Positions 1 to 23,618 of a stretch of DNA of 23,901 nucleotides are shown here, in pieces (position 1 is the first letter of the stretch; every line of letters begins with the position of its first letter). Position numbers and translations under genes: made by a program. This DNA is from a virus. The notes under the pieces are model-generated. The model was not told the origin of the DNA. It worked only from the letters and a program-made list of their open reading frames with translations, and made no database searches. Location: IMG/VR virus record IMGVR_UViG_3300027788_000081, positions 1-23,901 of that record; one strand, 5' to 3'.

Positions 1-3000
1 ACATTTTTACGCAAAGCTCGAAGTTCATCAGCTGTGTCTTGATCAAATTTATCATAACGAGCAATTCTTGCTGATATTTCTGAAAGAACAACTTCTCTAT
101 CACTAGCTCTTACAACAAGTGTATTAACATCTTTTCCTAAAACTTTTGATAACTTGCCTTCAACATTTAAGACACCTGTTCTTTCACCAGCGCCATAAAA
201 TGTAACCATGTTTTGAGCCTTAGCTGCTTTTCTTAAATCTTTTTCAGTAAGACCTAGTTTTTCATTAAGCCTTTTAAACCGAGGGTCGCTGAAAGTTTCC
301 GCAGCGATAACATCATACAATCGATTTTTTTGTTGAGTTGGTATGACATTCGATAGCTCTGCAAGCTGCTTGTTTTTTGTCGTGAGAGCAATGATTTGCG
401 CTCCAGACGATGAAGCATCTTGCTCAAGGGCAAGCCTTGTCCTGTATTTTGATATTCGTTTAATATCGCTAAAGTCACCGCCGCTCCATTCATTGATCTT
501 GGAGTATTCAATTGCAAAGCGGAAGAATTTACCCATCTCTTCCCCTTCGATTCTTGAGACAATAGGTGATTCGAGTATAGCCCGAATATCTCTGGGTTTA
601 CCTCTGCGCATTTGATCCCCGATTTCAATAAGATCTTTACGCCATTTTTCTGATATTTTTTGTCGCCCTCTGATAGTGAGCGAATCAAGTCTTCCTTCAA
701 AAAAGTCATCTAGTCCCCCAAGGAAAGATCCAACCTGGTCATTAAAGTTATTCCAACCACTGATACTTATTTCTTTTTCTGCAATTGTGTTTAGAAAGGG
801 TCTGAACGTCTCACCTGATTGCGGCCCAATGAGACCTCTATCATAGATACGTGCACGATGGTCAACAAAGGGATTATTACTAAAGGCAAGATTTTCCTTA
901 CGAAGGTATTCCATTGTTTTAAATCTTTCGTAAGCATCTCCTCTTGCGGCAATATATTTTTTATACTCATTGATTCCGTTATAAAACTTGGCTTTGCCTC
1001 GGTCGTCTTCAAAATAAAGCAATTTTTGAATAAAATCATAAAAGTCCTCATCTATTGTATATTGCGATTTAGCCGTCCAGTTTAAAGCGTCAGCCATATT
1101 ATCATCTATTAAGGAAGTAGGGAAGTTTCTAAAAGAGCTGGTAGAAGTTATTGGAATCCCTGTATCAAACTGTAAGCCTAGCTTGTTTTTAGCAAAATAA
1201 GTTTTAAAGCCAGCTCTGAAAATTAATCGATTTCTCTCTTCAGTTACAGGTATTCTTAAACCGAGGTCTACAGCTCTTGTTAATTTTGAATAAGCTTGTA
1301 TACGTGGGTCTGTAATCCTAATATTGTAAGAAAGAGTGTCATAATACGGGCCAAAGTACTGTCCAGAGTTTCTGCTTTTCATTCTTCTCTTTTGAACACC
1401 AAAAGTTTCAATTTCATATAAATTGTTATTAGAATCTAAAAGCTTTACGCCAAGACGATACCATTGATTTCTTGACCCGTTCAAGTTAGCAGAGTTGTAA
1501 AGATCTCTGCCTAACTGTACAGCAAGCTGATCGCGATCTGGAGTATCAGCAAGTGCTAAACGTCTGGCAAATCTTTCATAAAACTGATCAAGTTCATTAT
1601 CAGCTAACCTAGATCTTATTATCAAAGGTATATTAAAATCAAAAGTATCTCTAAGTTCTTTTGCTATCTTAGGAGCTGTTCGTACTTCCCAGTTATTCTT
1701 GCTAACTATATTATCAATAAACTTAGCTTGTAAATCTTTTAACATTACTGGGCCCAGTACAGGGTCAATATAATTACCATTAAGTAACTTTTTGAGAACA
1801 TCAGAATCTTTACGCAGTTGTGTTTCTAAAGAATCAGAAATATTCATAACATCAAATTTTATTTGAGATTGAGATACAGCTTTAAAATTAACCCAAGATT
1901 CACCATCACGCCTATACCTTGTAAACAGGATTCGTAAGTTATCTACAACAACTGCTCGTTCATTAACACTCATTTTTTGTGCAAGCGAATTGCTAAACTT
2001 TTCAATGTATTCTTTATCTTTTAGTTTAAGTAAAACACTCTCTTTTACTAACCTTAGGTTGTTATTTAAAACAGAAGGATTTGGTGTAAACATTCTTGTG
2101 TCTTCATAACGGCTAGTTATTGGATTAAAAATTAATTGATCTTCTCTAGGCGGACTTTGCAATACGCGTCTTTTTTGAGAACGTTTAGTGCCTATTAAGT
2201 TGCCTCTATAGTTTGTTGTTGAAAGAATACCATCAAGATCTTTAGATTGTAAGAGATAATAATCTCTTAAGGTATTAGTCATTTTTACATCGTTAAGTAA
2301 ATCTTCAGGCCTTGCTGCACCAATTCTCATTGCATCTAGCTTTTCTTTAGCAACAGCAAATCTTTTTGTATCAGTGTTTGCTGTAAAAGAAGAATCAGTA
2401 AGCTTCCTTAGCTGGTTAATGCCGATATTAGCCCCACCAACTCCTTTAAATTCTTTAGCAGATAGCTGTCCTTTTCTAAATAATTCTACTTTTTGATATT
2501 CTCCCAAATGTTTTAACTGCACATCAGGAGACTGCCTTGTTAGCCATATATTATACGGCTCTTTAAGTGCTGTCTTACCATCATAAAAGTTTTGTTCTTT
2601 TCGGCTCAAGCTTCCTAAGTTTCTTTTTCTGATTTGACTGACGTTATCGAGAGTGGCAAGGTCGGCCCAGGCTTTGAAAACAGGTGTAGTTGTGCTACGG
2701 CAATTATAATGAGCGGGAGGAAGATGAATAACATCGTCAACATCATATATATTACCATCACGCCCTGAGCAGATAAATGAAGTTCTTGAATCAAGCACTG
2801 CAACATATTGCCATCCTTCTATTGCTTTTTCATTGGCTTTGTAAACTTCTCGGTCAGCCTGTGCAACAACAGATGTAACAGAAGTTGTCACTAAAGCGCG
2901 AGAATTGTTCCTTGTTATTTTTGTAGACTTTCTTACAATACGCGCTATTTGGTTAGTGCTCATACCTTCAGCAATTCCGCGTCTTATTACTTGCTCAATT

Positions 3001-3431
3001 CTGCGTGTTTCAGTCTTTGCAATACCTTTCCAAGCCGGTGAAAGTGCCTTGTCTCCGGCCAGAGTGCGCCGTAGTACAATTTCTTCGGCAACGCTAGGGT
3101 TCGCTTTAGCGGTTCGCCAAAGCTTCCCTATGGCACGCTCTGTTGTCACATAAGCATGGTTTAATTCGTCTGAAGCTAGGTCTAATAAAGATCTTTTTGA
3201 AATCTTAAAAGCTTCAGCGGCTGTTTTATTAGACTCGCTGGCAAGTGCTGTACGTAATCTAAAAAAGCCTCTGTTTGAAAACTTTGCGTCTCTTATTAGT
3301 TTATCAACACGAACCCGATGACCATTAATCTCTAAATCAACTTTATTGCTTAAACGTTTTTCATAAAGTCTAATCATTGCAGACCTGTCTAGTTTTTCGT
3401 CAAAGACTTGTGTATTTACATTAATAGCCAT
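1..3431 (-). CDS. Minor head protein (MuF/SPP1 gp7-like) fused to single-subunit RNA polymerase, partial
   Basis: The frame opens with ATG at 3431 (upstream TGAGGT, 8-nt spacing, 11 bp after the portal stop) and stays open for 1,143 codons to the left edge. I translated it codon by codon and found no stop. Residues about 100-250 match the phage head-morphogenesis fold: a helical stretch, then W207-QYVAVLDSRTSFIC221, and PPAHYNC ending at C244, as in Mu F and SPP1 gp7. Those proteins sit at the portal inside the head. Residues about 250-800 are unassigned. Then come single-subunit RNA polymerase motifs: D857-HRAR-IYDRGLIGPQSGE (the DxxGR element, with Ala for Gly), motif A D1005-ASSSGAQIIALTTKN, and motif B K1071-AQNMVTFY1079-G1080. 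K-x7-YG has the same spacing as T7 K631/Y639/G640. The 148-residue gap from the first element to motif A is nearer to N4 virion polymerase than to T7. Motif C (second catalytic Asp) should lie beyond the edge. The likely role is a capsid-packaged, injected polymerase. Confidence 0.88.
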   Translation of the reverse strand, partial: MAINVNTQVFDEKLDRSAMIRLYEKRLSNKVDLEINGHRVRVDKLIRDAKFSNRGFFRLRTALASESNKTAAEAFKISKRSLLDLASDELNHAYVTTERAIGKLWRTAKANPSVAEEIVLRRTLAGDKALSPAWKGIAKTETRRIEQVIRRGIAEGMSTNQIARIVRKSTKITRNNSRALVTTSVTSVVAQADREVYKANEKAIEGWQYVAVLDSRTSFICSGRDGNIYDVDDVIHLPPAHYNCRSTTTPVFKAWADLATLDNVSQIRKRNLGSLSRKEQNFYDGKTALKEPYNIWLTRQSPDVQLKHLGEYQKVELFRKGQLSAKEFKGVGGANIGINQLRKLTDSSFTANTDTKRFAVAKEKLDAMRIGAARPEDLLNDVKMTNTLRDYYLLQSKDLDGILSTTNYRGNLIGTKRSQKRRVLQSPPREDQLIFNPITSRYEDTRMFTPNPSVLNNNLRLVKESVLLKLKDKEYIEKFSNSLAQKMSVNERAVVVDNLRILFTRYRRDGESWVNFKAVSQSQIKFDVMNISDSLETQLRKDSDVLKKLLNGNYIDPVLGPVMLKDLQAKFIDNIVSKNNWEVRTAPKIAKELRDTFDFNIPLIIRSRLADNELDQFYERFARRLALADTPDRDQLAVQLGRDLYNSANLNGSRNQWYRLGVKLLDSNNNLYEIETFGVQKRRMKSRNSGQYFGPYYDTLSYNIRITDPRIQAYSKLTRAVDLGLRIPVTEERNRLIFRAGFKTYFAKNKLGLQFDTGIPITSTSSFRNFPTSLIDDNMADALNWTAKSQYTIDEDFYDFIQKLLYFEDDRGKAKFYNGINEYKKYIAARGDAYERFKTMEYLRKENLAFSNNPFVDHRARIYDRGLIGPQSGETFRPFLNTIAEKEISISGWNNFNDQVGSFLGGLDDFFEGRLDSLTIRGRQKISEKWRKDLIEIGDQMRRGKPRDIRAILESPIVSRIEGEEMGKFFRFAIEYSKINEWSGGDFSDIKRISKYRTRLALEQDASSSGAQIIALTTKNKQLAELSNVIPTQQKNRLYDVIAAETFSDPRFKRLNEKLGLTEKDLRKAAKAQNMVTFYGAGERTGVLNVEGKLSKVLGKDVNTLVVRASDREVVLSEISARIARYDKFDQDTADELRALRKN

Positions 3432-3442
3432 CAGGTTGTACC

Positions 3443-5002
3443 TCAGTTATCTAATGACCTGTCAAAGTCATTTAAGTCATCGTTACCTCGACTTATCAGA
3501 TCGTCACTGGCAATTTCTGCCTTGCCGTCTTCATCGTCGTAGTCCGGATCCACGATATCATTGCTTTTGAGTATTTGTAGCCATATGCTTCTAGGCACAA
3601 GCCCGTTTTCATACCACTCAGTAGCAAGTCGCAGCCAGTCCGCTCCAAGAGGAACTGGTGAAAAGTCTTCAGTTAAACTAAATTCGATTTCTCTGACTTC
3701 ACAATCTACGTCATATTTCCAGTTAACCATAAAACAGATTACTTGGGACATGATATTGCTCACACGCTCATTGAGACTACCTAACTGGGCAGTCTGTGCA
3801 GCGTTTCTAATTTCTAAAGCAATTCCAGATTGTGACACTTCGGGTGTAAGCATTCTTACACCAAGTTTAGCCATTTCTTCGATATTAGCAGCAATTGCTT
3901 TTTCCATGTCGCCCAGTGCATCTGTAGGAGTGGCGAGTATGTCAGCTTTTGCATCTTTTGGTAATTTCCACATACTCCCTAAACCTGATTCAACAATTGC
4001 ATCAAAATCATCAGAGTTCATATCAGAAGTAATATAAGGCGTGTATGTCGCGGCACCATATAGAAGATGGTTGCGACGTGTAACTTTGTTATATAAAGCT
4101 TTTTCTTTAGCAACTAAAGAAGACATCATAGGTTCAGCAGGTTCAACGTCACCATTAGCAGGCCAAGCAGGAATAAAAGTAAGTCTTTCTCCGTTTTTAT
4201 AAAAATTATCTAGTGTTTCAACAACTTCATACCCTGATTCTAGTTCCATAAAAAGTCTTATTTGATACAGACCATTAACAATTTCGTGAACCCATATTGC
4301 TGGAATTTCTTCGTCATGAAACTCGTTATCAGGGTCTGCTTTATTTACAATACCCTGTACTAAAACTCTTTGCAACTCTTCCTCACCTAGTGTGTTGTTT
4401 CCGATTTTCCAGTTTATAACATTTTCGGCTGTCCAAAGCACAGGATATGGCGATATTTTTTGTCTATCAGTTAAAGACAGCTTAGAATCTTCTGGTATAA
4501 ACGGGTGATCTACATAAAGCCAAGAGCGCGATGTCTGCATTTCTTCCCATAACATTTTATCAAGAAAAGAAGTAAGTGAATTACCTTCTCTGCTAAAATT
4601 ATTCATTATCCAGTTATAAGCTTCTTCAGGCACTTTTTCAGGCAATCTTAAGACAGGCTTTTTTCTTAACAAGCCGCTAACTAACATTTTTGCAAAAATG
4701 TTACATATTCCAGGCAACTCAGCTTCTTCAATTAAAAAAGAATATTGCTCGAAAGTCATTTTAGATGAAAAAGGTATAAGTATTCTACCCTCTCCACCAA
4801 CCAAATCAAGATCGTGTTCTTTAACTTTTCGCTCGCCGCCTAGAATAGCCCTGTTTTCAGACCAAGTTGTTTCAAGTGCAATATAGCGGTCAACAGGGTC
4901 TTCAACACCCCTGTTACCTGCATTTTGCATATGTCCAAGCTTTGAACTACGTTTAAGATGGCTTGTGCTTGTACGAACCACCTTTTTCTCAGGGAGTCTC
5001 AT
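3443..5002 (-). CDS. Portal protein (DUF4055-type)
   Basis: The 519-residue product would form the dodecameric ring at one head vertex through which DNA is packaged and ejected. The match rests on the pattern of DUF4055-type portals. There is a conserved N-terminal block around residues 70-125 (LIPFSSKMTFEQYSFLIEEA, then LPGICNIFAKMLVSGLLRKKP). A middle beta-rich region around 200-290 includes WTAENVINWKIG and IWVHEIVNGLYQIRLF. A helical block around 365-430 (EEMAKLGVRMLTPEVSQSG followed by a run of Ala/Gln/Ser) matches the C-terminal helices of that family. The C-terminus is very acidic (DPDYDDEDGK). The ATG lies one base after the upstream stop (TAATATG), so translation is probably coupled. 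The minor head/polymerase gene follows after 11 bp, the usual portal then MuF order. Confidence 0.9.
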   Translation of the reverse strand: MRLPEKKVVRTSTSHLKRSSKLGHMQNAGNRGVEDPVDRYIALETTWSENRAILGGERKVKEHDLDLVGGEGRILIPFSSKMTFEQYSFLIEEAELPGICNIFAKMLVSGLLRKKPVLRLPEKVPEEAYNWIMNNFSREGNSLTSFLDKMLWEEMQTSRSWLYVDHPFIPEDSKLSLTDRQKISPYPVLWTAENVINWKIGNNTLGEEELQRVLVQGIVNKADPDNEFHDEEIPAIWVHEIVNGLYQIRLFMELESGYEVVETLDNFYKNGERLTFIPAWPANGDVEPAEPMMSSLVAKEKALYNKVTRRNHLLYGAATYTPYITSDMNSDDFDAIVESGLGSMWKLPKDAKADILATPTDALGDMEKAIAANIEEMAKLGVRMLTPEVSQSGIALEIRNAAQTAQLGSLNERVSNIMSQVICFMVNWKYDVDCEVREIEFSLTEDFSPVPLGADWLRLATEWYENGLVPRSIWLQILKSNDIVDPDYDDEDGKAEIASDDLISRGNDDLNDFDRSLDN

Positions 5003-6029: not shown

Positions 6030-8234
6030 TTAAATTGCGCTTGCTGTAATTGTCCAAACAAATGTCCAATCTTCACCAACTTCTCCGGCATTGGACAAGA
6101 ACGGAAGACCATACAAAAAGCCAATTAACGAATCCGCAGTTAATACCGTATCAGCTAAATTACTGAATGTAATTTTATTAGCAGCTCCAAACGACGGGTC
6201 ATTTACAGCAGTTGAGCCGCGAGTGTCATAAAGTTCGTACATAACTCTTTGTTCTGTTATATACGTGAGTCGGTTTGCTGATGTACATTTGCCAACACAT
6301 CTAGCAATAATTTCATAAGGGATGCCAACTTGACTAGCAGTATTAGCGTTTGGAGAGTAGAAAGTATCAAACCCATATTGAACTGTATTAGGTGTGTTGA
6401 CTACCAAACTAACTGTTGCTTGATGTCTGCTGTTTGCTGTTGAAGCGCTAAGTCCACCAGAAGCATCAATTAACACTGGAGAAGTGTATGTTGCTGGCTT
6501 AATACTTGTAAGCGAGAGAGCACCGTTCCAATTTAAGTTAGTTGTGTTTTCAGTATAAACTAAAGCATTTTGAGAAGTTTGCTTAGCGGCCCCTGTTCCA
6601 AAAGATATTCTTGAAGTACCATCATCAGGACAGCGTATGTGTATCCCAGAATCTCTGTTACCTTGGCCTATTATAACTTGTGTTTTTACTGGGCCAATGT
6701 CAACGCCTTCATTATATTCTGCGCCAGCAAGAAAAACCATCTGTTTCTTATCAGTTGAAACTGGATTACCTATTTCAAGTGAAGCTTCAGAGCCAACACC
6801 TATTTTTAAAGTTTCAGTTTCGGGCGTAGTAGTATCCTGTGCCGCAAATATTGACAAATTCTTTGAGGTGTTAATCAGTACTAAAGATGAAGCATCAATT
6901 GTATCTATTACAAAATCAGCCACTTTTGAAGTATGTGATTCAAACCGCATATAAGCATTATTTGCAACAGTTACGCGACCAGTTATTGCTGCAACCGTTG
7001 CAACAACAAGCGCTGTTGTGCCAATATGAACACTCGGGCTTGTCGTTGAAAACTTTGTAGAATTGTCAGTATAAGGCGATTGTACAAGTAAACGATTTTT
7101 AACAGAATAATATAGCGAATCAGCTGCAGCCGTTTGGCTTTTTGCATATATATCAGAGCCAATTTGAGATGCAAGGTTTGTTGTTAAAAGATATTGTGGG
7201 TGTGGGTCTCCTGTACTGAGTCCTTGTAAACCCGCATGATCTACAATAATTCCGTTTTTAGTACCATTGCCAGGGCCCTTAATTGCTATCTTAGCAGCTC
7301 TAAAACCTATATCAACTAACTCCATAGGGCCAAAGTGCCCATAAACATCAAGAGCAGGCAGCCCACTAGTAGATACAATGTGAGTATAATCATCAGATTG
7401 GTGAAGAATATATTCGGTGTTCTTTGAGAACCGATAGGACATGTTAGTCACGACAAGGGACGCATCTATTCTTTGCTGAGCGTATTGATGAAGAATGACT
7501 TGTGATTTATTTTTTTCAAGAAAAAGCCCTTCATAACGCTTTCGCATGACGTCAAAACTATCAGCATATCCTTGCGCCGTAACTTCATTAATTTCTGTTT
7601 CGCCATAAACGGATGCTGAACCAGGTACCGAATTTGACTCACCTTGAATCCAAAGGAAAACATCAACTTTTGATACTATTCCTGATAAATGAGAGCTAGC
7701 AAAAGCAGCGCTAACAGCGTTTCTTAAATAGATATCAGCAGTCGCATTCTCAGCCCAGTAAGAAATAGGTCGGCCATTAGCGGAAACTTCAATAAGATAA
7801 ACTTTTCGACCAGTAAGCTCATTTAGCTTTCTTGCACAAGCAATACCAATAGACCCTACACCGCCTTCACGATAACCTACATAAACCGATGAGTCAGCTT
7901 GTTGGCTCGGCCAGTCACCTTTTGCAGGAGTAGTAGAGTCTTGAGATCTAAACATGAAATTTGCATTAGATCCGTCAGAACACCAATTATATACATCAGG
8001 GTTTGGAAACCAACGATCAGCAATAGGTGCCGTGCCATTTATCGGGCTAAAGACATCGAGCGGCCATACGGCAACGCAGTTGCTTTGCCCCGTAGCAACT
8101 ATAACGATTGGCTCATCCTCTGCTTTATAAGGAAAGGCTAAATGCCCCATTTGTTTTAATTCTTTAAAATTACCGTCAACTTGTTCTGTTGTGAGCGGAT
8201 TTGAAGTATCCGCCCTGTATATTATATTTGCCAT
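6030..8234 (-). CDS. Tail fiber/spike with SGNH carbohydrate acetylesterase domain
   Basis: This is a 734-residue modular receptor-binding protein. Residues 1-30 (IIYRADTSNPLTTEQVDGNF) are the short attachment head seen in many phage fibers. Residues 42-320 form an SGNH esterase of the sialate O-acetylesterase-like type. GQSN (49-52) carries the nucleophile S51, WIQGESN (194-200) is the block V Gln-Gly-Glu-Ser, and D295-VYG-H299 supplies the DxxH pair. All catalytic positions are present. HAGLQGLSTGDPHPQYL (about 332-348) is a typical fiber linker. The remaining residues (about 350-734) are beta-rich and repetitive, as in a trimeric shaft and tip. The likely task is removing O-acetyl groups from host surface polysaccharide during adsorption. 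The start overlaps the upstream stop (TAATG), so the two are co-translated. Confidence 0.88.
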   Translation of the reverse strand: MANIIYRADTSNPLTTEQVDGNFKELKQMGHLAFPYKAEDEPIVIVATGQSNCVAVWPLDVFSPINGTAPIADRWFPNPDVYNWCSDGSNANFMFRSQDSTTPAKGDWPSQQADSSVYVGYREGGVGSIGIACARKLNELTGRKVYLIEVSANGRPISYWAENATADIYLRNAVSAAFASSHLSGIVSKVDVFLWIQGESNSVPGSASVYGETEINEVTAQGYADSFDVMRKRYEGLFLEKNKSQVILHQYAQQRIDASLVVTNMSYRFSKNTEYILHQSDDYTHIVSTSGLPALDVYGHFGPMELVDIGFRAAKIAIKGPGNGTKNGIIVDHAGLQGLSTGDPHPQYLLTTNLASQIGSDIYAKSQTAAADSLYYSVKNRLLVQSPYTDNSTKFSTTSPSVHIGTTALVVATVAAITGRVTVANNAYMRFESHTSKVADFVIDTIDASSLVLINTSKNLSIFAAQDTTTPETETLKIGVGSEASLEIGNPVSTDKKQMVFLAGAEYNEGVDIGPVKTQVIIGQGNRDSGIHIRCPDDGTSRISFGTGAAKQTSQNALVYTENTTNLNWNGALSLTSIKPATYTSPVLIDASGGLSASTANSRHQATVSLVVNTPNTVQYGFDTFYSPNANTASQVGIPYEIIARCVGKCTSANRLTYITEQRVMYELYDTRGSTAVNDPSFGAANKITFSNLADTVLTADSLIGFLYGLPFLSNAGEVGEDWTFVWTITASAI

Positions 8235-8680
8235 TATCCATTTACCTTAAGTGTCCATATTAAAGTTACAGAAGAAGTGACAGTTTTTGTTATAGTTCCT
8301 GTAAGAAGCCGAGATATCATTACACCGCCAGTTTGTAAATTAAACAACCCAGCTTCTTCTATACTTATTGCGGTAGCTGGATTACCAGGGCTAAACAATG
8401 CTGTGTACTGCGCTGTATCGCCATTAATAACTGTACTTGTCACGGCAGCAGCAGCTTGATGCGAAATTAGTGTAGTGTCTGCTAGTGCAGCCGTTTGTGA
8501 CGAAGAGCCAATTCTAATATAGCTTGGTACAAGAGTGTCATTACTTATAAGCCTGTCAGCAATAAGCCCTTTGCCTCCGGTAACAATTAAGTTGTCTTTA
8601 ATAACTTCTTGTTCTAAATTCCCGTCTTTGTCGTGGACTTGAATAGTAACTTGCCCAAAAAGCTGTAGTGTATCTTTCAT
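8234..8680 (-). CDS. Small beta-sandwich virion protein, tail-fiber associated
   Basis: This 148-residue protein belongs by pattern to a family that sits beside fiber genes in many phages. It has a strand-rich N-terminus (LFGQVTIQVHDKDGNL), then IVTGGKGLIADRLI, then VPSYIRIGSSSQTAALADTTL, and a hydrophobic C-terminal beta hairpin ending WTLKVNG. These proteins are generally virion components. I cannot tell whether this one is a fiber base, a collar or an adaptor. The ribosome binding site AGGAG lies in a 12-bp palindrome. The stop overlaps the start of the esterase fiber, which suggests the two products work together. Confidence 0.8.
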   Translation of the reverse strand: MKDTLQLFGQVTIQVHDKDGNLEQEVIKDNLIVTGGKGLIADRLISNDTLVPSYIRIGSSSQTAALADTTLISHQAAAAVTSTVINGDTAQYTALFSPGNPATAISIEEAGLFNLQTGGVMISRLLTGTITKTVTSSVTLIWTLKVNG

Positions 8681-8682
8681 GC

Positions 8683-8694
8683 AGGAGTACTCCT
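8683..8694. promoter_or_regulatory. Perfect 12-bp palindrome containing the ribosome binding site
   Basis: AGGAGTACTCCT reads the same on both strands. On the minus strand its AGGAG is the Shine-Dalgarno sequence of the gene starting at 8680, and it overlaps the upstream stop codon (8693-8695). In mRNA it could fold on itself with a GUAC loop or pair between two transcripts, which may lower initiation. The effect is inferred. Confidence 0.4.
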
Positions 8695-9226
8695 AAAAAG
8701 TGTTTAATTGATCCATGTAGCCTGCCTCAGCATAGCCAAGTTCAGCAAACCAAAATGTATAAAGTTTACCAGCGTCAGTGATTGTAACAAGCTCGGTAGG
8801 TATGCTTTCGATTATTTCGAAATCAATATTATCTATAATTGCTGGCGTGTCAGCTATACGAACCGGTCTATATTCAGAAGCACCACTAAACAATGAATCT
8901 GACATGTTTAAATTTTCATCAAGAGCTACTGATATAGAATAATTTAAACTGTCGGTTAATTCAATAGATTCGTTGTTAGCAACAGTCAACAAGGTTGTAA
9001 AGTCTTCAGATAATGAAGCTGTCTCATTAGGTGAAAAAGATTCGAAAAAGACTATTTCATTGTTAATTATTTCTGTAATTGCAAGTGCGTCGTATACATA
9101 TAAAGTATAACCTGCAGCCATGTATGTTGGGCTTGTAACAACATTTAATGCTTCTATTTTTGTAACAATCTTTACAGACTCAGGATTTTTTATTTGTGCT
9201 ACATACGGAATTATTTTATTTTCCAC
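8693..9226 (-). CDS. Hypothetical virion protein with repeated acidic beta motif
   Basis: This 177-residue protein starts with GTG, preceded by AGAGAGG at a spacing of five. Residues about 55-120 hold a loose repeat of roughly 20 residues with an acidic or Asn-Glu turn followed by Ser/Thr and alternating hydrophobics: NETASLSEDFTTLLTV, NESIELTDSLNYSISV and DENLNMSDSLF. Such repeats are common in beta-structured phage surface proteins. There are no catalytic motifs or membrane segments. Its place between the two fiber genes suggests a part of the fiber or tail-tip apparatus. No function is assigned. Confidence 0.75.
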   Translation of the reverse strand: MENKIIPYVAQIKNPESVKIVTKIEALNVVTSPTYMAAGYTLYVYDALAITEIINNEIVFFESFSPNETASLSEDFTTLLTVANNESIELTDSLNYSISVALDENLNMSDSLFSGASEYRPVRIADTPAIIDNIDFEIIESIPTELVTITDAGKLYTFWFAELGYAEAGYMDQLNTF

Positions 9227-9237
9227 AGAAACCTCTC

Positions 9238-9591
9238 TTAGTTAGATAACCAAGGCATTCCAACAGAAACAGAATTTCGTTTTAAAAACTTAGCTTCAAG
9301 AGCCTTCTCAATTTTTTCTTGACTGACATCAGACTCGTAAACAACACCAGTCTCAGGATCAGTTTTACTAGCCCAGCACCAATTTAAAACTTGAGATTCT
9401 GTCAAGTCTTGATACGGAATATATGAATCTAATGAAGTATCTGGAGTGAAACTAACACAACCGAATAAGCTTTCTGTTATACCATTTTCAAATGCTACAC
9501 ATTCCCAATAGGCCACAATAACACCTCCCGCAGCATCAGCGGGGGCTGTGTTGTATGTTAATGATGTTATTTTCCAATCAAATGTAGCCAT
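9238..9591 (-). CDS. Conserved small phage protein (DUF7936-like)
   Basis: This 117-residue protein begins with the strand ATFDWKITSLTY, continues VIVAYWECVAFENGI, and ends with a helical segment (LTESQVLNWCWAS, then SQEKIEKALEAKFLKR). The pattern WKI...VIVAYWE...C/VSF...VLNWCWA recurs in small virion-region proteins of many phages. I believe it is the DUF7936 type, from memory rather than a search. It lies one base after the long fiber's start region on the map, in the same operon. It is probably a structural or fiber accessory protein. Confidence 0.78.
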   Translation of the reverse strand: MATFDWKITSLTYNTAPADAAGGVIVAYWECVAFENGITESLFGCVSFTPDTSLDSYIPYQDLTESQVLNWCWASKTDPETGVVYESDVSQEKIEKALEAKFLKRNSVSVGMPWLSN

Positions 9592-9592
9592 A

Positions 9593-12500
9593 TTATTTAT
9601 TCTCCAAAGCTTCTATCCTGCCAATTAATGACTGTATTAACGCTTGTTGTTCTTGATTCTTTTCTTCTTGTTCTTGATTTGCCTTAACAAGCACAGTAAT
9701 TATAGACTCATAGCGCATTGAAAGAATGCCTTCTGAATCGGCGTCAACTGCAAGTGGCAACACTTTCTGAACATCTTGTGCTAATAAACCAATATGCGGT
9801 TTACGATTTTCTAGCGGTTCATTATTGTAAGTGAAATAGACAGTTCTAAGCTCACTAAGCATTTCTGTTGCATTTTCTACATTACTAGAGATATCTTTAC
9901 GTCGTTCGTCACTTGTTATACTAAACGTACTTTGACCCCATGACAGAGTAGCTGAGTTACCAACTGTCGCTCCTTCTGCAGTAAAGAAACTTAAGCTAGG
10001 GTTAGTACCACCGTTGCTCCTTATCAGCCAGTCTTGATCTGAAGAAGCTGGAACACTATCGTTATTATTAAATCTAAGAGAGCCTCCGATGGCCGAGCCT
10101 GTTTGTTGTGCGAGGTTAAGCTCACCGGTAGCCGTTACCCAGTTTGATTGAAGAACGAGCTTTCCATACATTAAAGGATCATCGCTTTCTATGGTTAAAA
10201 CCCCAGCTGCGGTATTTTGAAAAATCCAATTATTAGCACGATCTCCTGAAGACAGTTTAAACGTAGCCCCAGCCCCATCTTGTGCGTGCTGCATTATACG
10301 AACATTTCCAGTAAATTGGCTCTCTGTATTGTTCATATTTAAGCTAGTTGTTGTAGTTGCACTTCCATTAAGTCGAAGGCCATCGCCATCGAGACGTAAA
10401 CGCTCAACTTTAGCAAAAGGATTTCCTACACCAAAAAGAACAGTGTTTACCAGATTGTTTTCAGCCAGATGACAACCGATTACTACATTTCCTCTTCCAC
10501 TGACTATCGCCGCTCCAGCACTATCTCCTATTCCAATATTATAAGAATACGACTGCCAGAGATTTTGATTTTCGCTTGCTGCGTTCATCGCGGCGGTGAC
10601 GTTGGCGCCAAGATATCCAAGAGACAGCCTTCCAATCGAAGTATTATGAGTACCTATTTGGTTAAATGGTATTGTTAAGTAACCCATTGCAATATTATTA
10701 AAACCGGTAGTGAGAGATTGACCTGCGTCTCGCCCTATTATCGTGTTGTCTGTTCCTGATATATCAGCAAAGGGTGTGGCAGAAGCTCCATCTCCAATTA
10801 GAGTGTTGCCAGCTATATTGTTCGGCCCTCGCGCAATAAGTCGACTACCATTAATCTTAAAGTCTATACCGTCATTAAGCACTATACCTGCGTTATCAAC
10901 TTTTATACGCGGTATACTACCGCTCGCAATTAGCAAGGTTTGATTTAACGTTTCTGTGCCAGCTAAATTACCAATAATCGTGTTATTAGCACCAGATGTT
11001 ATTGCAGAACCGGCATTATTACCTATACCTAAATTGCTGCTAGCTGTGCTATTCTGTAAGGCGTTTGAACCAAATGCGGTATTCATTGTACCTGTAAGAT
11101 TTGAACCTAGCGCAGAGCTTCCTATTGCAGTATTGGTAGTTAAGCCACTGTCATTAAGTAGTGGCATTATTACAGCCGCTGTAACCTGAGTGCCAACATA
11201 TGTTTCTGTGGCATACGTTGCTAAGCTATGATCGCCCCAGCCATAAGTAGTATCTACTTTAATACCATCAGCCTCTACATCACGCCCGTCGACTAATCCT
11301 GGGTTTAGTATATTGCGAGAAGCATCAACTAAAATCGCGTCACCAAGCCATATTGCGTCAGGGAGTCGTTCAACCTCAATAGACTGTATTACTGTTTCAC
11401 CACTACCTTGATAGTTAGTGATAATCAATAAATCAAAGTACTTACCTTCTGGGTCAAACTTTTGTCTGTCGCCCGTGCCGGGTCCTGGGTCGGTAGAAGT
11501 GTTGTAACCACTGAAAGTATCTTCAAACGTGTAAGTTGTGCCAGCAGTTAAAGTTTGACCGCTCGCGATACCGTAGTTGTACGTATTTGCAAGGTCACTG
11601 GAGAGGTTAGTCTTGTCTTCGTTTAGCGTCTTAACTGCCGCATAAAATATTCCAGTACCTGTAGTAGTGGTGATCTGCTTGACCCTAACCTTTATCCTGT
11701 AGTGCGCTGTAGGGTCAATTGGAACCTGACACCTTATAGCTGACGATATATTCTGCGCGCCGTTGAACGACATACCTTGGTGATCTTGGCTGTAAGTCAT
11801 AGTGCCGCTACTTGTGGAAACCAAGCTGCCCCAGTCGTTGTTTCCAAGGTAGTAGTGGCCGCTGGTGTTAAAATCAGCAGTTGGGGTGGCCCAAGTGAAT
11901 GTACCATCACCGTCAGAGCGTAGGTACTGGCTTGATGTACCATTGCCCGTTACGTCCAAGTGCTGGGCCTTAATGCTGTTGTCAGCATAGTCATCATTAC
12001 GCAAACTAAACGTGCCGACACTATCAGTAGCAGTCCAGCCATCAGCATTCTTAAAGTCGATGCTTCCTAGAGAGCTTGCTATGTGGATGTGACCAGCAGT
12101 GGTGTCATTTAGTGCAGCTCCAGAGGAGTTGATGATGATACCGGTAGCGCCTTGGTTGGTGTTGCCCGCTGCGTTTCCTACAGCGATAGAGTTTGTGCCT
12201 TGCGTAGTTTCGCCTGCTAATCTACCAATAGCTACGGCTGCTACGCCCTGCGTATCGTTACCAGCTGTGTTACCAATAGCTACGCCGTTGTTGCCCTGCG
12301 TAATATTACCTGCTGAGTTACCTACAGCTACAGAGTTAGCGCCCTGTGTACTCTGACCTGCTTTGTAGCCTAAAGATACAGCCTTAACACCCTGCGCACT
12401 CATACCCGCTACGTATCCAATAGCAACAGAGCTTTCGCCCTGCATATTGTTACCAGCTAAGTATCCTACAGCAACAGCATTAGAGCCTTGCGTAGCGGCT

Positions 12501-13306
12501 CCAGCATTGACGCCAGCTCGGAAGCTGTTAGCGCCTGCGCCTGTGCTTTGTAGGCCAGCAGTTAAATCAAGCGAACCGCCACTAATATTCAAAGTTCCAG
12601 TAATGCTGACATCACCGCCATCTGTAATAATCAAAGCAGGACTGTAAATCCAGCCTGTACTGCCACTATATCTAAGTACAGAACCTACAGTTGTTGTAGG
12701 CTCAAGAACAGTATCAGGAGTTACAAGCATTGTTGGACTAAATAAGATTTTTACTAAACCTCTTACTGGCTTCCAAGTTCTTCTGTAAGTGTTGTTATTT
12801 GGCTCTGTTACGCGAAGCTCTATAAAACCATATACAGGAAACCCAATAGCAGGGCCAGGAGCCCAGCCAAAACCTAAATTAGAAGGAAAAGACAAGTAAA
12901 CAGTTGTAGGATCATGCTCTAACCATAAAGGGTTTAATGCCGGATTTATATCGTTAATATAGTTAGTTCCAACATTGAGTTTATATGATTTGTTCTCGAA
13001 GCTAACAACATCTTCTAGCGTATAAGCTGTTGTATTTAACCAAGCGCCTCTGTTGTTCGGGATTCGAACATTAAGCGTTGTTTGATATCCGTCAGTTTTG
13101 TATGTAGAGGGTATAGTACCCGCCCCGTCATTAACACCTTCTAGTATAACATATTCATATTCAAAACCGTCATCAGGGTCAGAAAATTCAAAAATGTCTA
13201 GAGTTACTGGGAGCTCTAATTGCTCTCCTTGGACTATGTCCATTATAATTGTTTCGCTTAGCGGTGTTACATCGATATTACCTGTTGTTAGACCAGATCT
13301 TGCCAT
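9593..13306 (-). CDS. Long tail fiber with head-repeat stalk and C-terminal S74 intramolecular chaperone
   Basis: This 1,237-residue fiber has several parts. Residues 1-200 form the N-terminal virion-attachment region. Residues about 260-387 contain eight 16-residue repeats of the trimeric-autotransporter head type (AVAVGYLAG-x-x-x-QG, AVAIGRLAG and so on). About 480-690 is a beta-sandwich resembling a carbohydrate-binding module. About 745-920 is a second block of the same repeat style (NTAIGSSALGSNLTG, NNTIIGNLAG). Residues 1132-1237 are a Peptidase_S74 domain: S1132-DERR-K1137 matches the catalytic Ser and Lys spacing of endosialidase chaperones, followed by HIGLLAQDVQKVLPLAV, MRYESIITVLVKA and a coiled coil. 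This domain drives trimer folding and then cuts itself off before the serine. The start forms a TAATG overlap with the terminase stop, with AGGAG upstream. Confidence 0.93.
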   Translation of the reverse strand: MARSGLTTGNIDVTPLSETIIMDIVQGEQLELPVTLDIFEFSDPDDGFEYEYVILEGVNDGAGTIPSTYKTDGYQTTLNVRIPNNRGAWLNTTAYTLEDVVSFENKSYKLNVGTNYINDINPALNPLWLEHDPTTVYLSFPSNLGFGWAPGPAIGFPVYGFIELRVTEPNNNTYRRTWKPVRGLVKILFSPTMLVTPDTVLEPTTTVGSVLRYSGSTGWIYSPALIITDGGDVSITGTLNISGGSLDLTAGLQSTGAGANSFRAGVNAGAATQGSNAVAVGYLAGNNMQGESSVAIGYVAGMSAQGVKAVSLGYKAGQSTQGANSVAVGNSAGNITQGNNGVAIGNTAGNDTQGVAAVAIGRLAGETTQGTNSIAVGNAAGNTNQGATGIIINSSGAALNDTTAGHIHIASSLGSIDFKNADGWTATDSVGTFSLRNDDYADNSIKAQHLDVTGNGTSSQYLRSDGDGTFTWATPTADFNTSGHYYLGNNDWGSLVSTSSGTMTYSQDHQGMSFNGAQNISSAIRCQVPIDPTAHYRIKVRVKQITTTTGTGIFYAAVKTLNEDKTNLSSDLANTYNYGIASGQTLTAGTTYTFEDTFSGYNTSTDPGPGTGDRQKFDPEGKYFDLLIITNYQGSGETVIQSIEVERLPDAIWLGDAILVDASRNILNPGLVDGRDVEADGIKVDTTYGWGDHSLATYATETYVGTQVTAAVIMPLLNDSGLTTNTAIGSSALGSNLTGTMNTAFGSNALQNSTASSNLGIGNNAGSAITSGANNTIIGNLAGTETLNQTLLIASGSIPRIKVDNAGIVLNDGIDFKINGSRLIARGPNNIAGNTLIGDGASATPFADISGTDNTIIGRDAGQSLTTGFNNIAMGYLTIPFNQIGTHNTSIGRLSLGYLGANVTAAMNAASENQNLWQSYSYNIGIGDSAGAAIVSGRGNVVIGCHLAENNLVNTVLFGVGNPFAKVERLRLDGDGLRLNGSATTTTSLNMNNTESQFTGNVRIMQHAQDGAGATFKLSSGDRANNWIFQNTAAGVLTIESDDPLMYGKLVLQSNWVTATGELNLAQQTGSAIGGSLRFNNNDSVPASSDQDWLIRSNGGTNPSLSFFTAEGATVGNSATLSWGQSTFSITSDERRKDISSNVENATEMLSELRTVYFTYNNEPLENRKPHIGLLAQDVQKVLPLAVDADSEGILSMRYESIITVLVKANQEQEEKNQEQQALIQSLIGRIEALENK
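12146..12530 (-). repeat. Eight tandem 48-bp (16-codon) repeats inside the fiber gene
   Basis: The repeats encode a Gln-Gly turn every 16 residues (Gly 274, 290, 306, 322, 338, 354, 370, 386) with A-V-A-I/V-G-x-x-A-G between. The units differ at the DNA level by synonymous and loop changes, so this is an old coding repeat rather than a recent expansion. Such heads form left-handed beta-rolls in trimeric adhesins. Confidence 0.85.
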
Positions 13307-14655
13307 TAAAATGTACTCCTTTGTCGTACCATTGTACCCCCGTGATTCACTGGGTAAAGGAACTCTGTTGAATATCTGACTTCATCGCTCCAGTGTTCAT
13401 GGCCGCCTTTCTTATCTATGACCATCATATCACTGTTTCTATCTAGCCAACTCGTTCGCTCCATAGACATTATAGTGTCTTGAGCTCTTGGATGAAAAAA
13501 CATTGAACTGTTACCAGATGCTGTCAAAAGCTTCCTGTTAACAGCTTGTGCACTGTCAACAATTTTAGGTGAAGCTGTTCTTGCGCAAACAGCAAACCCT
13601 GCATCTCTTAATAAAGATAGATCAGAAGCACCCAGTGTTGCAGATGTTTTAGCTGAATTACCAGTAGGGTCAGGGTAAGTAATTATTCTTTTATCAGGGT
13701 ATTTAGCTTTTACAACTTTAATAAGTTCAGTTGTATTGGGCGAACCTTTGAAATCTTCTATATAGTGTATTTGATCAGCTCTCACTGCAAAAGCGCTAGC
13801 TGCCATAATACCAACGTTAAAGTCAATACCTAGATGAACGTCTTCTCCAACCTGAAAATCAAGAATATCATCTCTAACATGTTTATCTCTGTTAAAATTA
13901 TAAAATACGCTAAAGCCGGAATCTTGAAACTGCGCAAGGTACTCTGAAGCCCATTCAACAGGGTCTATGCGATGCTTAATTTTTTCTATTTCAGCCGGGT
14001 CTAGATACTTAGACTTAGTATAATCATAGTGATACGAACGCCATTCACTGTCATTCTCTGCAAAATGAAACATATTATGTAAAAAGTTATACCCTTTGGG
14101 AGTACTAATAGCAGCGGCTCTTCCTGGACTTGGAGCGCCATAATGTTCAGCCATCATTGGAGACCAACGAGTTCTGATACAAGGCTCTATTATTCTTTCC
14201 CAAGCCACACGCAAGCCAGGCCCTCTATTCCATGAGCTTACTTCATCCATTACAACGAAATAAGCGCCCTTCCCTAGCATCCTTTCAATAGCTTCATAGG
14301 AGACTAGCCGTAAATGAACATTCCCTGGGAACTCAAATGTTCCTCTATCGTGAGAAGACTTAATAGCATAAGCTTCTAGCCCCATGTGATGAGCAAGTAA
14401 CGGAAAATAAATTTCTTTAACCTGATCAAATGTTGGAGCAATAATATAAACATTCTTATTTGGAACCATTGGTGACAGCTCCATCAACTCTCTACAAGCA
14501 GTCCAAGCTGCAACTGCTGCAAAGAAGGACTTGCCCCATCCGCGAGCACAAACACCTACTGCAAATCGTGCTTCTTTAGTAATAAAGAGGTCTTTAAACA
14601 TAGGTGTTTGATATTTATGCAATGTTATTGTAGGCTTTAAGCTAGCATTCATCAT
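13306..14655 (-). CDS. terL: Terminase large subunit (packaging ATPase and nuclease)
   Basis: The 449-residue protein pumps DNA into the prohead at the portal and cuts the concatemer. The ATPase domain carries a Walker A variant A37-RGWGKS43, Walker B VVMDE (134-138) and the coupling motif AISTPKG (182-188). The C-terminal RNase H-like nuclease has LGIDFN with D278, then TYPDPTG with D329, and a C-terminal acidic site around HWSDEVRYS. The length is normal for a terminase large subunit. The start overlaps the preceding stop by four bases (ATGA). The gene order small subunit then large subunit is usual, but here a fiber follows directly and the portal comes seven genes later. Confidence 0.95.
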   Translation of the reverse strand: MMNASLKPTITLHKYQTPMFKDLFITKEARFAVGVCARGWGKSFFAAVAAWTACRELMELSPMVPNKNVYIIAPTFDQVKEIYFPLLAHHMGLEAYAIKSSHDRGTFEFPGNVHLRLVSYEAIERMLGKGAYFVVMDEVSSWNRGPGLRVAWERIIEPCIRTRWSPMMAEHYGAPSPGRAAAISTPKGYNFLHNMFHFAENDSEWRSYHYDYTKSKYLDPAEIEKIKHRIDPVEWASEYLAQFQDSGFSVFYNFNRDKHVRDDILDFQVGEDVHLGIDFNVGIMAASAFAVRADQIHYIEDFKGSPNTTELIKVVKAKYPDKRIITYPDPTGNSAKTSATLGASDLSLLRDAGFAVCARTASPKIVDSAQAVNRKLLTASGNSSMFFHPRAQDTIMSMERTSWLDRNSDMMVIDKKGGHEHWSDEVRYSTEFLYPVNHGGTMVRQRSTF

Positions 14656-15065
14656 TCGGGCAACGTATCTAAGTCATTTTGGCTTGGGTCTTCAAGCGCC
14701 AAAATAAACGGTTGATTAACAGGTGTATCGAAGTTAATACCTTCAGGTACACGACCATACATATAGCGTGTGAGGTCAGTGCCTGTCTTCTGCATTAAAC
14801 TAAGAATAGCTGCATGCGCCATTGGAGAATAGCGTCGTTGTTTACCATCGCCATTTAACTGGGCAATAGTGCCTGTTTGCATTCCTTCATGATATTCTGT
14901 TTGAGCTTCAAGCTTTCGATATAGTTCTACTTGTTTAGCTATTGGGTCAAAGCCTAACTCAACAAGCCTACGAACTGACCGGATATTTGACAAATCGCTA
15001 TCATCGTCATCTAAGCTGTTCAGATCAGGCTTAGTTATCTGTAAATAAGATACATTCCCTGTCAT
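14652..15065 (-). CDS. Probable terminase small subunit
   Basis: This 137-residue acidic protein has a disordered acidic N-terminus (SLDDDDSDLSN), a central helical region (SVRRLVELGFDPIAKQVELY, then RKLEAQTEYHEG) and a conserved-looking segment QRRYSPMAHAAILSLMQKTG. It is the first gene of the virion operon and overlaps the large terminase by four bases. That is the standard place for the subunit that recognises phage DNA. I see no clear helix-turn-helix, so the assignment rests mainly on position and size. The ribosome binding site is AGAGGA, seven bases before the ATG. Confidence 0.7.
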   Translation of the reverse strand: MTGNVSYLQITKPDLNSLDDDDSDLSNIRSVRRLVELGFDPIAKQVELYRKLEAQTEYHEGMQTGTIAQLNGDGKQRRYSPMAHAAILSLMQKTGTDLTRYMYGRVPEGINFDTPVNQPFILALEDPSQNDLDTLPE

Positions 15066-15292
15066 TAGTGTGTCCTCTGGTTATAACTTTTCTAATACAA
15101 CCGGACTCTCTTGCGAATCAAACCGTATTTCTTCAAGTTAGGATATGTTCTTGCCTCATTGTGGGTTAATTAAACGGCATAAGAAACCCAACAGAATCAA
15201 CAAAGTGTAAACGTGATTATTAAAGCGTCACTATCATTAAAAACTGGTAAAAGATAATTCAAAGAGACGTTAGGTTTGTAAACGCGTGTTGC

Positions 15293-15307: not shown

Positions 15308-15377
15308 ATGTTTGTATTCAAGCAGCTATTGTAATAGTTTGTTTAAAAACCCCGTTAAATTAGCCCGCGAAAGGATA

Positions 15378-22914: not shown

Positions 22915-23478
22915 TTACGCCGCAGCGTTTGCTTCAGCAGCTTTACGCGCTCGGTAGTCTGCAAGACCTTTCATAGCATTTTCACTAGGAGCACGCTTTT
23001 CTTTGCCAGCATCAAAGCTTTCTAAGAGAGCAACTTCGTTAGCTACAATCCAGCTAGCAAGGTCTTCGTTACCATCAGCGAGTGCAATTAAAGAGTTTTT
23101 AACAGCTACACTCTTTTCTTCAGCTGTCATTCGCCGTTGAGTTGGCCACCGAAAAGTTTCAACAATAGCAGTGCCGTGTTCATTCAAGAAAGCAAGCTTA
23201 GTATCACCTGTTTCTTCATAGATTGCCTGAAGACGCTCAATTGCTTTAGCAAGCTTGCTTCTTTCAGACTTAGTTACTCGTTTGATAGAGCCTGTGTCAA
23301 AACAGGAGGCTACGTCAGCACGATTAGTGGCTAGCCAGTCAGACAAACTTTCGTCGTTTTGAGTGAGACTATTAAGAGCCGTCACTACCAGAGGCTTACG
23401 AGTGTGCTCATTAGCTTCTGCTTTTGTATCGAAAGCTTCATTGTCTTCGGTAATCCACTTTTGCCTTAATTCAGCCAT
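22915..23478 (-). CDS. Protein with threefold WLxxN...F repeat
   Basis: The 187-residue protein starts with KWITEDNEAFDTKAEANEHT, a small beta/alpha unit seen in other phage proteins. It then carries three related helical units: residues 40-70 (LSDWLATNRADVASCFDTG), 91-117 (LAFLNEHGTAIVETFRWP) and 134-165 (LASWIVANEVALLESFDAG). In each, an aromatic-aliphatic pair (W48-L, F97-L, W143-I) is followed exactly 12 residues later by Phe (60, 109, 155). Basic KR stretches follow units one and three. It ends in an Ala-rich tail. The ribosome binding site is AGGA. It stands alone between a leader and a terminator, suggesting strong, separately controlled expression. The function is unknown. Confidence 0.85.
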   Translation of the reverse strand: MAELRQKWITEDNEAFDTKAEANEHTRKPLVVTALNSLTQNDESLSDWLATNRADVASCFDTGSIKRVTKSERSKLAKAIERLQAIYEETGDTKLAFLNEHGTAIVETFRWPTQRRMTAEEKSVAVKNSLIALADGNEDLASWIVANEVALLESFDAGKEKRAPSENAMKGLADYRARKAAEANAAA

Positions 23479-23546: not shown

Positions 23547-23559
23547 CCTACAAAGTAGG
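23547..23559. promoter_or_regulatory. Hairpin, 5-bp stem and 3-nt loop
   Basis: The plus strand reads CCTAC-AAA-GTAGG, with a purine-centred loop on the strand that is template for leftward genes. It is about 70 bases upstream of the start codon at 23478, a suitable distance for a promoter. It is a candidate N4-type hairpin promoter and may also be a chance palindrome. Confidence 0.33.
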
Positions 23560-23618
23560 GTTAACTTAACGGATTCATCCGTGGTAATGAAACCGTGACT
23601 ATTTTCTGACAACTTGTT

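Follow-up and report, generated by a model that had tools for sequence, protein, structure and literature searches.

What is an RNA polymerase doing in a phage head protein? The question is raised by a 23,901-nucleotide stretch of viral DNA (positions 1 to 23,901 of IMG/VR virus record IMGVR_UViG_3300027788_000081; this whole stretch is referred to below as the window), in which the gene at one end combines an N-terminal MuF domain, typical of minor head proteins, with a C-terminal single-subunit RNA polymerase. An earlier interpretation of this locus from its letters alone (here, the sequence-only reading) had suggested a transcriptase built into the virion. The explanation favored here, to which we assign a probability of roughly three in four, is that the gene product is a virion RNA polymerase made as one chain, which would be docked at the portal by its MuF region and ejected with the DNA and would then start a two-polymerase transcription cascade.

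A head protein and an RNA polymerase in a single frame

In the window, the fused gene (positions 3..3431, minus strand) begins with an ATG codon and stays open for 1,143 codons up to the contig end, as claimed in the sequence-only reading, so that the remainder of the protein is cut off. The missing part, including the stop codon that was to be looked for outside the window, is found on a second IMG/VR contig of the same virus (L002/L006), which shows 99.98% identity to the window across a 4,765-base overlap and carries the whole gene of 1,539 codons plus stop (L002:1335-5954). The window frame matches both phrog_241 (head morphogenesis, E-value 3.8e-55) and phrog_414 (RNA polymerase, E-value 1.2e-11) in PHROGs, and the single frame encodes an N-terminal MuF region plus a complete C-terminal single-subunit RNA polymerase.

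An assembly artefact at the junction of the two parts, which the sequence-only reading had listed as a possible flaw, is ruled out because the same single frame recurs in 108 of 108 intact untruncated genes among the fetched loci, which represent many contigs and two clades that are ∼33% identical, as well as in the deposited DSS3_VP1/PM1 genomes. Counting all untruncated frames, MuF plus polymerase is found in 108 of 109, the exception (L163) being a frameshift in a 5'-truncated contig. Full-length relatives among 50,697 phage records are limited to EBPR siphovirus 1 (56% identity) and DSS3_VP1/PM1 (31%), where they are annotated as “head protein” and “minor head protein-like,” respectively, and not as polymerases; other matches to the polymerase half in these records are weak and nearly all fall in genes whose annotation is RNA polymerase, T7-like or N4 RNAPII. 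IMG/VR yielded 496 confirmed relatives in one scan and at least 497 in another (two overlapping sets that were left unmerged), and GTDB yielded two, both within one metagenome-assembled genome. Family phages in a Gammaproteobacteria metagenome-assembled genome are represented by L086 (JAOUJT010000001.1, 74 kb), whose coordinates coincide with those of virus record L048, and by the small L087 (JAOUJT010000313.1).

In EBPR siphovirus 1, the fused coding sequence breaks off after ...KAQNMV and continues with TFYGAG..., so that the split falls midway through polymerase motif B. The interval between the pieces (L003:23180-24045) matches the group I intron family RF00028 (E-value 1.4e-8; its 40.5 bits fall short of the gathering score, 50) and holds an HNH endonuclease gene, and the pieces are annotated as separate genes gp47, gp48, and gp49. 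Group I introns typically settle in the most conserved sites of essential genes.

Active site, fold, and affinity of the polymerase part

Residues D857, R859, R861, D1005, K1071, Y1079, G1080, H1412, D1415, H1437, and D1438 are invariant in all 63 aligned sequences, and the first seven of them occupy exactly the positions assigned to them in the sequence-only reading. Motif C, which that reading had expected beyond the window and 170 to 280 residues past Y1079, is present in the full protein as STIHDAFFT, with the catalytic pair H1437-D1438, albeit at a distance of 359 residues. This long spacing is partly due to a clade-specific insert between motifs B and C (approximately residues 1235-1329), which is found in the window clade, is modeled with low confidence, and is for the most part missing in the DSS3 clade. 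Motifs A, B, and C were all detected in 163 of the 164 unique loci scanned, the exception being the 5'-truncated locus L164, which lacks the motif A pattern; motif A has the form DASSSGAQ in 159 loci and DASASGAQ in 4. The Pfam RNA_pol domain scores 21.1 bits in the window copy, just below the cut-off of 22, because the gene is truncated there, and 49.3 bits (E-value 4.5e-13), above the curated cut-off, in the complete protein.

An AlphaFold2 model of residues 398-1539, built with 63 sequences, has a mean predicted local distance difference test (pLDDT) score of 80.4 and a predicted template modeling score of 0.77. Foldseek comparison of this model with the PDB gave 74 matches at E-values of ≤1e-3 (best, 7.6e-18), of which the best 50 are all RNA polymerases of T7 or of human or yeast mitochondria. 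The palm and fingers fold of single-subunit RNA polymerases, whose absence from a structure search would have refuted the sequence-only reading, is thus recovered. The top three matches in BFVD could be identified by protein length only, because BFVD supplied no names: the first, a 1,463-residue model (3.3e-64), equals the fused DSS3_VP1 protein in length, and the next two (762 and 732 residues, ∼3-4e-19) equal the separate polymerases of the Pelagibacter phage Kolga and of DSS3_VP1. T7-like enzymes come further down, and N4-type virion polymerases score more weakly (∼1e-10 to 1e-11). By these length-based assignments and the predicted model, the nearest structures outside the family appear to be the Pelagibacter phage RNA polymerase and the second polymerase of DSS3_VP1.

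At the sequence level, a phmmer search of the PDB with one sequence gave no match, and T7 was reached only by the family profile and the model. The profile ranks T7 RNA polymerase first among PDB sequences (E-value 3e-4), with the DxRxR motif and motifs A and C aligned to their T7 counterparts, and its direct scores are 21.2 bits for T7, 15.5 for N4 RNAPII, 7.6 to 0.8 for the second polymerases, and -1.3 for the N4 mini-vRNAP (vRNAP, virion RNA polymerase). The N4-like polymerase half seen in the sequence-only reading therefore has to be given up: a homolog of N4 vRNAP is ruled out by the higher profile scores of T7 and N4 RNAPII, with which the BFVD fold scores agree. Because profile and fold scores both favor T7-type enzymes, this looks like a T7-type enzyme that was recruited to the virion independently of N4 vRNAP. 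In a tree of polymerase cores, all MuF polymerases form one clade (100/100), whose origin cannot be placed because of long branches. Judging from conserved residues and the model, the enzyme is catalytically intact, belongs to the T7/mitochondrial superfamily, and is predicted to synthesize RNA.

The MuF head part

The Phage_Mu_F domain scores well above its curated Pfam cut-off of 29.6 bits in the window copy (59.5 bits, residues 144-248), in the full protein (58.6), and in the DSS3_VP1 homolog (51.7). C221, P238, P239, H241, C244, and R245 are identical across all 58 aligned relatives. Among the key residues named in the sequence-only reading, C221, the PPAH motif, and C244 thus stand, whereas W207 does not, varying between W, Y, and F. 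A model of residues 1-617 consists of long helices, a compact domain, a low-confidence linker (residues 331-356), and the start of the polymerase. The head part is able to exist without a polymerase, since the MuF proteins of Pelagibacter phages Kolga and Aegir align to its first 348 residues only; in Kolga, the RNA polymerase is encoded by a separate gene.

Gene neighborhood, second polymerase, and candidate promoters

The fused gene directly follows the portal gene (DUF4055, 36.9 bits; phrog_145, E-value 9.4e-50) and lies on the same strand as the other convincing genes of the window, which include those for the portal, terminase, and tail fiber. On the overlapping contig, the order is portal, MuF polymerase, scaffold (phrog_206), major head protein (phrog_247), head-tail adaptor (phrog_477), and then tail genes, among them the major tail protein (phrog_158) and, as a separate gene, the tape measure protein (phrog_3519). 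The surroundings of the fused gene are thus a late siphovirus module. In the structural block at 6030-13306 (minus strand), the window also encodes a repeat-containing, tail-fiber-like protein of 1,237 amino acids, which has an S74 chaperone peptidase at its C terminus, and a 734-amino-acid protein with an SASA-type sugar esterase domain. In DSS3_VP1, a tRNA-Asn gene (L004:19822-19897) is located between the portal and MuF polymerase genes.

Every one of the 12 IMG/VR family records that reach 49.8 kb, and two smaller ones as well, encodes a second, separate RNA polymerase (735 to 994 amino acids, E-values from 1e-32 to 1e-88); its gene is found ∼17 to 32 kb downstream of the fused gene in the five genomes mapped. 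DSS3_VP1 likewise carries a second T7-type RNA polymerase (L004:41195-43393). In the records behind L041 and L070 (G005:40438-42273 and G010:18123-20177), the second polymerase has 926 and 994 codons, respectively, versus ∼750, with extra in-frame sequence midway through the RNA_pol match that could be an intein.

Intergenic regions of these genomes contain several promoter-like motifs. The motif of the window clade, CCGTTAA[A/C/G]TTAACCC, occurs at 5 to 7 sites per full genome (with up to 2 mismatches; expected, 0.4 to 1.0), which are mostly intergenic, nearly all on the gene strand, and usually 20 to 350 bases upstream of a gene. The DSS3_VP1 motif AGG[G/T]T[A/G]CGTTAAAGAG, i.e., AGGKTRCGTTAAAGAG, was observed at 14 sites with 0 expected, and the two motifs have CGTTAAA in common. 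The family-wide form of this intergenic motif, seen at three sites in the window and in five family genomes, is CCGTTAAnTTAACCC. These sites may serve one or the other phage polymerase as promoters.

Table 1. Positions in the window of the fused gene, its parts, neighboring genes, and promoter-like motifs
Feature	Position	Strand	Evidence or remark
MuF-RNA polymerase gene, codons 1-1,143 of 1,539	3..3431	-	3' end outside window, complete in L002:1335-5954
N-terminal MuF/SPP1-gp7-type head region, residues 1-330	2442..3431	-	Pfam, PHROGs, model
Pfam Phage_Mu_F domain, residues 144-248	2688-3002	-	Pfam 59.5 bits
Probable flexible linker between head and polymerase parts, residues 331-356	2364..2441	-	pLDDT <50 at 331-333 and 344-356
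Single-subunit RNA polymerase part, residues 357-1143 in window (to 1539 in L002)	3..2363	-	Pfam, Foldseek
DxRxR motif, D857-R861, counterpart of T7 D-x-R-G-R region	849..863	-	63/63 invariant; T7 alignment
Motif A, DASSSGAQ, catalytic D1005	396..419	-	163 loci with motif A
Motif B, K1071-x7-Y1079-G1080	192..221	-	163/163
Portal protein gene, 519 amino acids, directly upstream of fused gene	3443..5002	-	DUF4055 36.9 bits; phrog_145 E 9.4e-50
Terminase large subunit, 449 amino acids	13306..14655	-	phrog_2 E 1e-28
Promoter-like motif CCGTTTAATTAACCC, intergenic	15163..15177	-	~110 bases upstream of late block (14652-15065, then terminase)
Promoter-like motif CCGTTAAATTAGCCC, opposite orientation	15352..15366	+	same intergenic region as 15163..15177 site
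Promoter-like motif CCGTTAAGTTAACCC, intergenic	23558..23572	-	~90 bases upstream of 187-amino-acid gene 22915-23478
Candidate promoter example ATAGGGTRCGTTAAAGAGGGG			

Proposed mechanism and alternatives

The virus probably delivers its own transcription apparatus into the cell along with its genome, because a T7-type enzyme is built into a predicted portal-site head protein. A polymerase expressed from the late block would be made too late for the early genes and therefore could be useful early only if carried in the virion. The virion transcriptase of the sequence-only reading is in this way supported by the gene position and by the second polymerase gene, which, together with the fusion, the polymerase fold, and the intact active site, are the observed basis for the scheme. 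One or two copies of SPP1 gp7 are directed into the procapsid by the portal, and in other phages MuF proteins carry C-terminal effectors for which delivery at infection has been proposed (PMC6316719, PMC5576092). In P23-45 and N4, a virion polymerase can begin early transcription, and a second phage polymerase follows (PMC10770324, PMC12633501, PMC4496689). From the precedents of SPP1 gp7, P23-45, and N4, we infer packaging, ejection, and transcription of the first genes by the MuF polymerase. The fused protein would be made late, at the same time as the portal, scaffold, and major head proteins; its N-terminal MuF region, by analogy with SPP1 gp7, would dock it at the portal inside the procapsid in a few copies, and it would leave the head with the DNA through a siphovirus-type tail. 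The C-terminal ∼1,150 residues would then act as an RNA polymerase, transcribing the first genes without the host enzyme; this first round would, directly or indirectly, cover the gene for the second, separate T7-type polymerase, which would take over.

Several points weigh against this scheme. A protein of 1,539 residues would have to pass through a siphovirus tail tube, and the contact between MuF and portal is carried over by analogy from SPP1; Foldseek gave no PDB match for the N-terminal model at E-values of ≤1e-3. The family motif analysis did not tell a promoter of the MuF polymerase apart from one of the second polymerase, and the partial 54-kb record of EBPR siphovirus 1 has no second polymerase match.

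In T7, DNA entry is driven by transcription. The MuF polymerase could similarly be both transcriptase and entry motor, staying tethered at the portal or conduit and, as it transcribes the leading end of the genome, pulling the rest of the long-tailed phage's DNA into the host. Such an anchored motor would be consistent with the binding of MuF proteins to the portal (PMC6316719), with the suggestion by the P23-45 authors that transcription takes place at the translocation pore (PMC10770324), and with the predicted flexible linker between the head part and the polymerase; it is nevertheless unlikely, as the head interior lies outside the cell and has no nucleoside triphosphates, so that an anchored enzyme could work only where the conduit opens into the cytoplasm. 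If true, genome entry and first gene expression would be coupled in one polypeptide.

The location of the gene in the late structural block and the promoter-like motifs upstream of late genes could also mean that the polymerase is confined to the late phase within the infected cell, working either on late genes or in transcription coupled to portal assembly and packaging, with no virion transcriptase at all. This is likewise unlikely: a separate T7-type polymerase is already encoded elsewhere, a portal-targeting domain would take the enzyme out of the cytoplasm, and the two-polymerase precedents employ the enzyme fused to a structural protein early. A degenerate polymerase retained as structural or DNA-binding filler, which would fit the distance of the sequence beyond the motifs from any known RNA polymerase (as in the fruitless phmmer search), is highly improbable given that the catalytic residues are all invariant across two clades, the motifs persist in nearly every locus, and the modeled fold is intact.

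Host-independent early transcription becomes testable in an isolated phage, DSS3_VP1, which infects Ruegeria pomeroyi. The DNA of this phage contains deoxyuridine in place of thymidine (PMC12697855), which may favor carrying its own polymerase. A T7-type polymerase was apparently recruited to the virion independently, via a portal-associated MuF protein, in a family with nearly 500 or more IMG/VR relatives, which suggests that MuF cargo includes core viral enzymes in addition to toxins. It also gives access to a new single-subunit polymerase and to a natural tag for packaging.

Comparison with known systems

Virion RNA polymerases are known from a few phage groups, namely, N4, phiKZ-type, crAss-like, and P23-45. 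N4 gp50 (Schitoviridae), which is packaged and ejected with the DNA (PMC12633501), resembles the MuF polymerase in that a polymerase of the single-subunit superfamily is part of a larger chain and the genome encodes two phage polymerases; it differs in its size (3,500 residues), in having no described MuF domain, and in belonging to a podovirus particle. Closer in arrangement is gp96 of Thermus phage P23-45, a virion polymerase fused to a structural protein in a long-tailed phage that has a second, non-virion polymerase (PMC10770324). However, that enzyme, which has a DFDGD site, is a polymerase of the two-barrel (cellular-type) superfamily, and it is carried by the tape measure protein instead of a head protein; a fusion of this type is ruled out here by the different fold and the separate tape measure gene. 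T7 and mitochondrial RNA polymerases share the fold, motifs A, B, and C, and DxRxR with the MuF polymerase but are free cytoplasmic or organellar enzymes, whereas the MuF polymerase adds a head region at the N terminus and, between motifs B and C, an insert that is disordered in part.

MuF polymorphic toxins, MuF-PBECR, and MuF-ART proteins have the same N-terminal Phage_Mu_F domain beside a portal gene and a variable C-terminal enzyme whose delivery with the DNA has been proposed (PMC5576092, PMC5512222, PMC6316719). The cargo here is a complete RNA polymerase, which the searched text of these surveys does not describe; the survey covering both MuF fusions and N4 RNA polymerases restricts N4-like virion enzymes to N4-like phages or prophages (PMC5512222). 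In line with the sequence-only reading, which knew of no described case, the literature searched yielded no MuF protein with a complete T7-type polymerase as its cargo, although an earlier mention in the description of Naomviridae (Curr Biol 2021) is possible. The direct homologs are the “minor head protein-like” products of DSS3_VP1/PM1 and gp47/gp49 of EBPR siphovirus 1, encoded beside the portal gene in the same order, the latter copy differing by its group I intron with the HNH gene. Virion polymerases and MuF cargo proteins are each already known; within the literature searched, it is their combination that is new.

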